DNA of 33,331 nucleotides from Candidatus Izemoplasma sp. (GTDB taxonomy: Bacteria; Bacillota_I; Bacilli_A; Izemoplasmatales; Izemoplasmataceae): NCBI GenBank assembly GCA_007117835.1, contig SKFU01000091.1, forward strand, positions 1 to 33,331, given 5' to 3'. Both the position numbers and the translations under genes were made by a program. Numbering within the stretch: the stretch's first letter is position 1; each line of letters opens with the position of its first letter. The notes beneath the pieces were generated by a model that saw only the letters and a list, made by a program, of their open reading frames with translations, searched no databases and was not told where the DNA came from. Shown in pieces: positions 21,561 through 23,316 of the stretch.

Positions 21561-22931
21561 CTAAAACAAGAATATGCTTGCGAGTAAAAAGTAAATAAAC
21601 AAGCCTGAAATATCTTTTATCGTGGTAATAAATGGTGCAGCAGCTGCGGCTTGATCAACGCCCGTTTTCAAAAGGAGAAATGGCACCATAAATCCGAGGC
21701 CTGCGGCCATCGTAATGGTGAACATTATCGCCAATGAAATAACGATTGTCAATTGGATATCGCCTTGCCAAACATAGACAACCAATCCAGCAGCAAAACC
21801 TAAAATTGCACCCATGGTTACACCCACCAACAGTTCTTTTGCCCATTGCTTAATAAAGCGCTTGAAATCAATGTGGCCTAAAGCAAGTGCGCGCGTGAAT
21901 ATTGTGGATGATTGGGTCCCAACATTGCCCCCCATATCCATCACAACAGGAATAAAAAACGCCAGTGTGACAATCGTTGCAAGTTGTTCTTCAAAACGAC
22001 CAATCACACCGCCTGCGACCATTCCGCCTGCGAGCGTTATCAATAAAAACGGTATGCGTACTTTCCAAATGCTAAAAAGCGAGCCCGAGGTAAGAATACG
22101 GCTTCTATCGGTTTCTTTGTTGCTAAACTCTAGAAATCCTGACGTGGTTAATTCGCGTTCAATGTTTTCATCTTCTAAAACGTCCATTGCATCATCGACA
22201 GTTACAACACCCAAGAGTCGGTTTTCTTTATCAACAACAGGTACCGAAAGTAAATCTGAATCTTGCAATAGTTTTGCAACGACTTCATCATTGACATCAT
22301 AATCAACTTTGATTGGGTCTTCGATCATGATTTCTTCGATAAGCGCATCAGGATCTGCGGTAATCAAATCTCTTAACTCGATCATACCTTCTAACTGTCT
22401 GGTTGCATTCGTAACATATAAATGATAAATCGTCTCAACTTCATCGGCAACTAAGCGTATACGCGCAAACGCATCTTGCACACTCATACCGCGTTTGAAT
22501 GAGATGTATTTTGGGGTCATGATGTTCCCCGCAGAACCTGTACGGTAACCCAAAACTAATGTGGTTAGCTCTTTTTCTTTTTTCGATAAACTCGCCAATA
22601 ATCTTGTGGCAACCTTTGCAGGCAGTTCATCCATTAACGCAGCTCGATCATCAGGTTCAAGGTTTTTAAAAAATTCAAGTGCGCGTTCATCGGTAAAGTT
22701 TTGAATCAAATCTTGTTGTACGTCAGTTTCAATGTACTCAAATACTTCAAGCGCAGTATCTTTATCTAACAAACGAAAAACAACCACTTGTTTTTCAGGT
22801 TCTAATATTTCAATGATATCGGCTAAAAAATAAGGTTCTAACTCTTGTAATGATTGTTTCAAAATCTCAGTTTGGTTGGTGTTAATAAGTTGTCTAATTT
22901 CTTTTAAAACCATAATTTTTTCTTTTTGCAT
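21561..22931 (-). CDS. mgtE: Magnesium transporter MgtE
   Basis: A homodimeric Mg2+ channel of the inner membrane. From the ATG at 22931 it has 456 residues. Order: cytosolic MgtE N-domain (about 15-120, with the DLIQNFTDERALEFFKNLEPDDRAALMDELP type superhelix), tandem CBS domains (about 130-250) that sense Mg2+, a connecting helix, and five membrane helices (about 280-455). The conserved pore region MDMGGNVGTQSSTIFTRALALG is intact. GGAG lies 8 bases before the ATG; a GTG ten codons earlier lacks a ribosome site. The gene is controlled by an M-box riboswitch and preceded by a 28-codon leader ORF. Confidence 0.96.
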   Translation of the reverse strand: MQKEKIMVLKEIRQLINTNQTEILKQSLQELEPYFLADIIEILEPEKQVVVFRLLDKDTALEVFEYIETDVQQDLIQNFTDERALEFFKNLEPDDRAALMDELPAKVATRLLASLSKKEKELTTLVLGYRTGSAGNIMTPKYISFKRGMSVQDAFARIRLVADEVETIYHLYVTNATRQLEGMIELRDLITADPDALIEEIMIEDPIKVDYDVNDEVVAKLLQDSDLLSVPVVDKENRLLGVVTVDDAMDVLEDENIERELTTSGFLEFSNKETDRSRILTSGSLFSIWKVRIPFLLITLAGGMVAGGVIGRFEEQLATIVTLAFFIPVVMDMGGNVGTQSSTIFTRALALGHIDFKRFIKQWAKELLVGVTMGAILGFAAGLVVYVWQGDIQLTIVISLAIMFTITMAAGLGFMVPFLLLKTGVDQAAAAAPFITTIKDISGLFIYFLLASIFLF

Positions 22932-22970
22932 AGATTTCACTCCATTCTTCACTATTTTCACTGATAGAAG

Positions 22971-23057
22971 TTAACGTCTATGGCTTAAACAGCTCACCAA
23001 ACGGTGAGATGATTTAAGTAGCCATAAACTGATCTGGGACGGTAATGTTTCAGACAT
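22971..23057 (-). CDS. 28-codon leader ORF between the M-box terminator and mgtE
   Basis: An ATG preceded by GGAGG at 8 bases, a better ribosome site than that of mgtE, opens a frame MSETLPSQISLWLL... ending SHRR and TAA. The stop is 39 bases before the mgtE ATG. The frame covers a long hairpin (22979-23026), and its own Shine-Dalgarno can pair with a segment inside that hairpin. This suggests a regulatory leader peptide rather than a structural protein. I do not recognise the peptide. Confidence 0.5.
   Translation of the reverse strand: MSETLPSQISLWLLKSSHRLVSCLSHRR
22979..23026 (-). promoter_or_regulatory. Leader hairpin with alternative pairing upstream of mgtE
   Basis: The RNA (5' to 3', minus strand) has TATGG, CTTAAA and CTCACC paired with GGTGAG, TTTAAG and CCATA around a GTTT loop, with small bulges. 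The segment CATCTCACC (23003-23011) is also perfectly complementary (9 bases) to GGTGAGATG at 23059-23067, which contains part of the leader-ORF ribosome site. Two exclusive structures are therefore possible. Confidence 0.5.
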
Positions 23058-23070
23058 ACATCTCACCTCC

Positions 23071-23105
23071 ATAAAAATAAAAAGTCTACTCAAAGAAAGT
23101 AGACT
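23071..23105 (-). terminator. M-box expression-platform terminator
   Basis: AGTCTACT and AGTAGACT arms with a 7-base loop, then TTTTATTTTTAT on the minus strand, directly after the riboswitch core. Confidence 0.85.
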
Positions 23106-23117
23106 GCGTTAAAAACG

Positions 23118-23270
23118 TAACCTTACCTTCGTTGAGTTTTAGCACTATACAGCGTCTTTTTTTAGCTACGTTAAACAACACCTTAATCCGATGATGTTTG
23201 CTGACCCATTGGCATCTTTAGATGTTTCTGGGTAGTAGCGTATATCTATATAGGAGCCTCACCTAACATA
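23118..23270 (-). promoter_or_regulatory. M-box (ykoK leader) Mg2+ riboswitch
   Basis: The minus strand carries the conserved M-box core in order: GTTAGGTGAGGCTCCTATAT, ACGCTACTACCCAGAAACAT, AAAGATGCCAATGGGTCAGC, the variable arm ATCATCGGATTAAGGTG, then GTGCTAAAACTC and AACGAAGGTAAGG. These match the well-known family closely. When Mg2+ is high the aptamer folds and allows the terminator at 23071-23105, switching off mgtE. Confidence 0.95.
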
Positions 23271-23287
23271 AGTGTTGTCCGTTATGC

Positions 23288-23316
23288 ATTATAACTGATT
23301 TGTCGTCTTTTAACAA
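23288..23316 (-). promoter_or_regulatory. Promoter of the M-box-mgtE transcript
   Basis: Minus-strand TTGTTA (23311-23316), 17-base spacer, TATAAT (23288-23293). This gives a leader of about 350 bases before mgtE. Confidence 0.75.

Follow-up and report, generated by a model that had tools for sequence, protein, structure and literature searches.

A short ORF with a strong ribosome binding site is located behind the M-box riboswitch of the mgtE gene in the window (the complete stretch of 33,331 nt analyzed here, Candidatus Izemoplasma sp., contig SKFU01000091.1), and ORFs of the same layout recur in most of the M-box leaders that were compared. The M-box is the textbook single-layer transcription switch. 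We propose, with a probability of about 0.6, that Mg2+ acts on the mgtE leader through two layers, the M-box with its terminator and, behind it, a translation-dependent leader ORF. As read from the sequences, the anatomy of these leaders is clear, as are its recurrence, the acidic bias at the start of the encoded peptides and the self-pairing of the ORF start region. The comparison suggests that a second, translation-dependent layer of Mg2+ control is widespread and apparently undescribed.

Anatomy of the mgtE leader

The leader is encoded on the minus strand. A TATAAT hexamer at 23288..23293, recognized by eye, is probably the -10 box from which mgtE is transcribed. The M-box (ykoK/mgtE) aptamer at 23117..23277 matches Rfam RF00380 over its full length (model positions 1-169) with 138.4 bits, far beyond the gathering cut-off of 44. 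Its expression platform is an intrinsic terminator at 23105-23073 (AGTCTACT-TTCTTTG-AGTAGACT followed by a T tract; hairpin -11.0 kcal/mol), and the gene downstream, mgtE (21561..22931), encodes a Mg2+ transporter with MgtE_N, CBS and MgtE domains according to Pfam.

Between terminator and mgtE lies the leader ORF (22971..23057), which runs from the ATG at 23057 to the TAA at 22971 and encodes the 28-codon peptide MSETLPSQISLWLLKSSHRLVSCLSHRR, for which no Pfam match was obtained. Its Shine-Dalgarno sequence (SD) GGAGGTGAG at 23062..23070 pairs with the anti-SD at -13.6 kcal/mol, compared to -6.5 kcal/mol for the SD region of mgtE (AATGGAGTG, 22938..22946), whose ATG at 22931 is found 39 nt beyond the stop of the leader ORF. 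A first-pass annotation of this DNA had already described the M-box with terminator ahead of mgtE and the 28-codon ORF with a ribosome site stronger than that of mgtE, and both descriptions hold. A DNA search with the window leader revealed neither a second copy in its own genome nor any close homologue elsewhere in the order, so the leader is not a dispersed repeat.

By eye, a minimal ORF (ATG-TAT-GTC-TGA, 23050..23061) overlaps the leader ORF and starts 4 nt upstream of it. ORFs of 2-3 codons that overlap the leader-ORF start at the same SD were seen in the window (23061-23050), L011 and L013. As the SD is shared, the ribosome may pick either start in these three leaders.

Pairings and folds in the window leader

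Part of the initiation region of the leader ORF, GGTGAGATG (23059..23067), is complementary over 9 bases to CATCTCACC (23003..23011) in the second half of the ORF, with a duplex energy of -14.5 kcal/mol, and CATCTCACC has an adjoining competitor, GGTGAG (22993..22998). These elements, read along the minus strand as 23067-23059, 23011-23003 and 22998-22993, had been placed exactly by the first reading. The long hairpin it had seen inside the ORF (22976..23029) is likewise confirmed, with -25.0 kcal/mol and a z of -6.86 that was matched by 0 of 200 shuffles. Taken by itself in the window leader, the 9-bp match is not significant in a shuffle test (z -0.8, p 0.22).

It had further been suggested that ribosome occupancy chooses between these two folds of the window leader. 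Pairing between the start region and the ORF does recur in relatives (see below), but judged by folding energies the ORF-internal hairpin, at -25 kcal/mol, should be favored over the 9-bp pairing at -14.5 kcal/mol, and in the predicted MFE fold the SD of the ORF pairs with ACTTCTAT just past the ORF and not with CATCTCACC. ACTTCTAT (22964..22971) is able to pair with either SD (-8.0 kcal/mol with that of the ORF, -4.8 kcal/mol with that of mgtE). In the relative L016 the 3' arm of the hairpin and the following ACTTC(C/T)AT are recognizably kept, ACTTCCAT being the counterpart of ACTTCTAT, and the 5' arm is also altered in a pairing-compatible way. There is no T tract behind the ORF hairpin of the window, i.e., no terminator downstream of the leader ORF as in trp-type leaders; terminator-like hairpins were found in the relatives L102 and L103.

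The leader ORF recurs across M-box leaders

The comparison set consisted of 59 Bacilli M-box leaders with an identified gene, many of them from draft genomes. ORFs were called with an SD energy of at most -7 and a length of at least 8 codons, keeping the best SD; by this rule, which was fixed after the first sequences had been viewed, 43 of the 59 leaders, the window included, hold a short strong-SD ORF between the terminator and the transporter gene. The fraction rises to 40 of 43 among leaders of at least 115 nt, and in most leaders lacking the ORF the transporter gene is located directly behind the terminator. Seven families contribute leaders with the ORF, and across the Bacilli the same layout is found before mgtE and before mgtA-type P-ATPase genes. 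SAM-riboswitch leaders of the same class, a control that is fair only in part because these leaders are shorter on average, hold such an ORF in only 1-2 of 28 cases (one with ATG, one with TTG), or in 1 of 14 if restricted to at least 85 nt.

Within the Izimaplasma family both leader types occur before mgtE. The short ones measure 68-83 nt from the aptamer end to the ATG, with mgtE directly behind the terminator, and the long ones measure 134-195 nt and carry an SD-bearing ATG ORF behind the terminator. L007, where the contig ends within the gene, also has a leader of the long type with an SD-bearing ATG ORF. A phylum-wide M-box search added one locus, from the same class.

Leader peptides start with acidic residues

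For the peptide counts near duplicates were removed, leaving 38 nonredundant ORFs. Residue 2 is Asp or Glu in 22 of these peptides (shuffle mean 9.1, sd 2.2), compared to 7 of 38 for the downstream main genes. Residues 2-10 hold 65 acidic residues in total, where shuffling gives 35 (sd 5) with a maximum of 49 in 500 shuffles. The excess is specific for the ORF frame (65 vs. 14 and 26 in frames +1 and +2) and concentrated early, since acidic residues make up 37 of 76 positions at residues 2-3 vs. 69 of 646 at residues 4-20. Lys or Arg occupies residue 2 in only one of the 38 peptides, showing that the acidic start is not simply a consequence of purine-rich DNA. Examples are MDEGPKPEQ (L112), MDEGPSCR (L114), MEDSPHCK (L071), MDEPSRR (L055), MDTGSSSGPIP (L063), MQETTDAIDDDDW (L119) and MNDKPDEED (L006); in relatives Gly and Pro often accompany the initial Asp/Glu codons. 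Between genera no peptide conservation was detected beyond this acidic start.

The window peptide itself is weakly acidic, with Glu3 as the sole acidic residue among residues 2-10 and with Pro6 present, and therefore the Mg2+ sensing step proposed below is least certain in the window. The peptides of L005 and L014, too, have little or no net acidity.

The start region pairs with the second half of its own ORF

In the 32 leaders with room for such a pairing, the duplex energy of the initiation region (positions -16 to +10) with the downstream leader was compared to shuffles. The initiation region pairs with the second half of its own ORF with a mean z of -2.36, and 20 of the 32 leaders reach p<=0.05; the pooled Stouffer z of -13.4 overstates independence, because leaders inside families are related. 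In leaders whose ORF does not overlap the transporter gene, the partner is nearly always found between 0.5 and 0.8 of the way along the ORF. The controls were null, with 0 of 38 for transporter starts tested against their own coding sequence and 1 of 28 for SAM-controlled genes. The 9-bp match in the window gains meaning because the same relation is found across these 32 M-box leaders, and with equivalent pairing in 20 of them it can be counted as one instance of a class.

Non-overlapping ORFs fall within strongly structured RNA, with a mean MFE z of -2.25 (-2.72 when the SDs are left out), and the most stable leader hairpins reach a z of -7.7. The ORF runs over the transporter start in 12 leaders and terminates 41-155 nt beyond it. 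These overlapping ORFs always precede mgtE, and their RNA is unstructured (mean z -0.01).

The first-pass annotation had proposed a second, translation-dependent control layer built from three elements, i.e., the ribosome site, its complement and a second copy of the site. Pairing of the start region with the later part of the ORF is indeed a recurrent design, but the three-element switch is not general, since competing further copies of the start region are no commoner across the leaders than expected by chance. The transporter's own SD pairs only weakly with the leader (mean z of -0.64 for n=29), and a crude ribosome-position model on the predicted folds gave no uniform direction of control across leaders. 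In an RNAalifold alignment of four related leaders (L059, L063, L125 and L126) the start-region helix is kept with few changes, either one-sided or to G-U; the long outer helix varies in sequence, in an alignment too poor to count covariation.

Leaders outside the Bacilli and without M-box

On a plasmid of Cetobacterium somerae (Fusobacteriota, NZ_CP092522.1) an M-box of 109.6 bits is followed by the ORF MEGDVQSSRRSTFYLKYYLRIDLSSLTVANLFYF and mgtA, and on a plasmid of Enterococcus gallinarum an M-box of 125 bits is followed by the ORF MEYPSPQMNNKKNARGSKCNS and mgtA. The annotation tables list no gene at either leader ORF, and the start-region pairing is not significant in C. somerae (p 0.08) and E. 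gallinarum (p 0.09).

Two further leaders, L142 and L024, carry no M-box at Rfam thresholds. L142, the Mg2+ P-ATPase region of an E. faecalis plasmid (LR962597.1), holds at 560-646 the acidic leader ORF MDDSSSMQKGLAEEDIKIYRQLLLSICF, with a start-site hairpin of roughly 25 bp (z -6.4). L024, an Izimaplasma relative (minus strand, uORF at 1336), holds the ORF MARKSNQIPQRSGCIADLDIEPDERLFSPFLRMC with a paired start region (z -1.9, p 0.04). As the ORF with its paired start region is present without an M-box in both, the module can stand apart from the riboswitch. The mgtE orthologue of L024 is 74% identical, and the leader ORF is kept with DLDIEPDER inside. In Vescimonas fastidiosa an M-box and mgtE were found but no leader ORF.

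Proposed two-layer control

The first layer would be the ordinary M-box with its intrinsic terminator, and the second a leader ORF translated only on those RNAs that pass the terminator. Ribosomes running through the ORF would keep its start site open and would sit on, or pass over, the stretch ahead of the transporter gene; after early ribosome loss the start site would close onto the second half of the ORF. By analogy with MgtL and MgtQ, the Asp/Glu codons (often with Gly/Pro) at the beginning of the ORF in most relatives may destabilize ribosomes at low Mg2+. With enough Mg2+ the ORF would be translated completely and transporter expression would stay low, whereas drop-off at low Mg2+ would raise it. 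We infer the translation of the ORF, the drop-off at low Mg2+ and the effect on mgtE with its direction.

Repression may take different routes. For overlapping ORFs the ribosome would run over the mgtE start codon and block mgtE directly; for at least two relatives (L102 and L103) a terminator may be exposed by translation of the ORF; and for the others the RNA folds before the transporter SD may be changed.

More tentatively, and at slightly less than even odds, leaders of Mg2+ transporters in Bacillota and Fusobacteriota may commonly hold a second sensor of Mg2+, whether or not an M-box precedes it. It would be an acidic-start, ribosome-destabilizing ORF with an initiation region sequestered by its own 3' half. 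The ribosome would serve as the sensor, a solution reached independently of the enterobacterial MgtL/MgtQ. If most of the longer M-box leaders hold a translated acidic-start ORF, control of Mg2+ in Gram-positive bacteria gains a second layer, for which the stability of ribosomes is the signal. Ribosomal sensing of Mg2+ via acidic nascent chains, known from enterobacteria, would then become a general idea that other lineages can be used to test. Leader ORFs so far unannotated would be added by the dozen, as well as a design in which the start site of an ORF is masked by the ORF's own end.

Alternative explanations

The leader could depend on translation without sensing Mg2+, responding to charged tRNA, proline or general translation capacity, or simply making translation of the transporter depend on a ribosome upstream. 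In L112, L113, L118, L066 and L107 the transporter SD would be freed by a ribosome standing at the ORF stop, several peptides of the window's family are not acidic, and many leader peptides of other kinds exist (e.g., PMC13009471). However, the acidic bias is tied to frame and position, no codon run for one amino acid is common to the ORFs, and the ORFs always adjoin Mg2+ transporters behind a Mg2+ riboswitch, with L060 as one exception. The end of the overlapping ORFs 41-155 nt past the transporter start argues against stop-restart coupling in these leaders. We consider such a leader unlikely, though a serious candidate.

A lower probability still is given to an element acting by RNA only, in which the hairpins influence mRNA stability, RNase sites or transcription pausing and the ORF is incidental. 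The very stable hairpins, with z down to -7.7 in the set and -6.86 in the window, would fit. Against it stand the strong SDs, placed at the correct distance from a start codon in 43 of the 59 leaders, the acidic start bias, and the overlapping ORFs, which lack any structure.

It is also conceivable, with quite a small probability, that the ORF encodes a functional small protein, which might for example regulate the transporter. Enterobacteria do have small proteins related to Mg2+, and the peptides of L005, L008, L066 and L111 have hydrophobic C-terminal halves. The uORF behind an M-box in Mycobacterium tuberculosis is a conserved peptide (PMC12810186). In the present set, however, no sequence is conserved between genera, the window peptide has no Pfam match, the ORFs of 12 leaders overlap the transporter start, and hydrophobic C-termini can arise simply because the segment complementary to the purine-rich start region is rich in pyrimidines. 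A chance ORF in a spacer left behind the riboswitch, which the window alone with its unconvincing ORF and 9-bp match (p 0.22) would allow, is scarcely credible given the recurrence in seven families, the SAM-riboswitch control, the acidic bias and the self-pairing.

Comparison with known leader systems

MgtL, the leader peptide of mgtA in E. coli and Salmonella, is fully translated at sufficient Mg2+ and the transporter is off, while at low Mg2+ ribosomes are lost at EPDP and mgtA is switched on (PMC11282234). Like MgtL, the ORFs described here precede a Mg2+ transporter gene and have an acidic start in most relatives (the MgtL start EPDP consists of acidic residues and Pro). In contrast, MgtL acts with a Rho-dependent terminator and without an M-box, whereas here M-box and intrinsic terminator precede the ORF, and the peptides have no sequence relationship to MgtL.

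MgtQ is encoded by a short strong-SD ORF between mgtC and mgtB of Salmonella and resembles the present ORFs in the Mg2+ transporter downstream and, as far as most relatives are concerned, in Asp/Glu near the start, with alternative stem-loops that involve the ORF as a further, probable likeness; Asp2, Glu5 and the alternative stem-loops are required to free the mgtB ribosome site (PMC8092293). It differs in its length of 8 codons, its position within an operon, its PhoP-controlled promoter and the lack of a riboswitch. The switched element is the transporter SD in MgtQ, whereas the recurrent paired element here is the start region of the ORF itself. Compared to both systems, a short strong-SD ORF directly upstream of a Mg2+ transporter was found in the window and 42 other M-box leaders. 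The acidic N-terminus, with Pro, is strong across the set and weak in the window, which has only Glu3 and Pro6. As to alternative folds selected by the ribosome, self-pairing of the start region is significant in the set but switching to the transporter SD is not general.

In M. tuberculosis the pe20 M-box controls the conserved uORF2/Rv1805A by masking of the SD together with Rho (PMC12810186). The order of M-box and short ORF before the annotated genes is the same, and the ORF is translated in M. tuberculosis. However, that M-box masks an SD, acts with Rho and precedes a conserved mycobacterial peptide, whereas the leaders in our set have an intrinsic terminator and unconserved peptides with an acidic start in most relatives. 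The statement of the first-pass annotation that an M-box followed by such an ORF had not been described was thus too broad; for the order of intrinsic terminator, ORF and Mg2+ transporter gene in Bacilli the searched literature yielded no account. In our literature search, which left most subscription journals outside its coverage, we found no description of a leader ORF downstream of a terminator-type M-box in Bacillota, and none of acidic-start leader ORFs before Bacillota Mg2+ transporters.

The mgtE (ykoK) M-box of B. subtilis shares the aptamer family, the mechanism of transcription termination and the mgtE target, but no leader ORF is mentioned in the available parts of PMC12288461 and PMC6711546. 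The leader ORFs MgtM and MgtP of the Salmonella mgtCBR operon (PMC3641672) respond, according to PMC8092293, to ATP and to charging of proline tRNA. With their tandem short ORFs and attenuation before Mg2+ genes they resemble L102 and L103, but they differ in this responsiveness and have no M-box.

Further leader variants

The M-box is patchy within the order (16 of 90 genomes). In L028, L032 and L047, all from one Izimaplasma genus, mgtE orthologues without leader are located directly behind an apparent hydrolase/esterase gene. A Mn2+ riboswitch was considered as second control and rejected, as the matches were too few and below the cut-off. In L060, starting at about 1948, the gene behind M-box and leader ORF encodes a membrane protein (MVFYYAMFAIFFVLVSLLFY...) without a match to the mgtE or mgtA products in the set.

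Past the aptamer end of L058 an SD is followed by ATA-GAC-GAG-GAT-AGT-CCC, which would encode MDEDSP if AUA starts, with an in-frame GTG upstream; a non-canonical start of this leader ORF is possible. In L102 (1659-1990) and L103 (1655-1950) two acidic-start ORFs follow in a row behind one M-box terminator. The first ORF is followed by its own terminator-like hairpin, and by reading of the sequence a segment of the ORF can pair with the 5' arm of this terminator. Apparently, three Mg2+-linked checkpoints would thereby lie ahead of one transporter gene.
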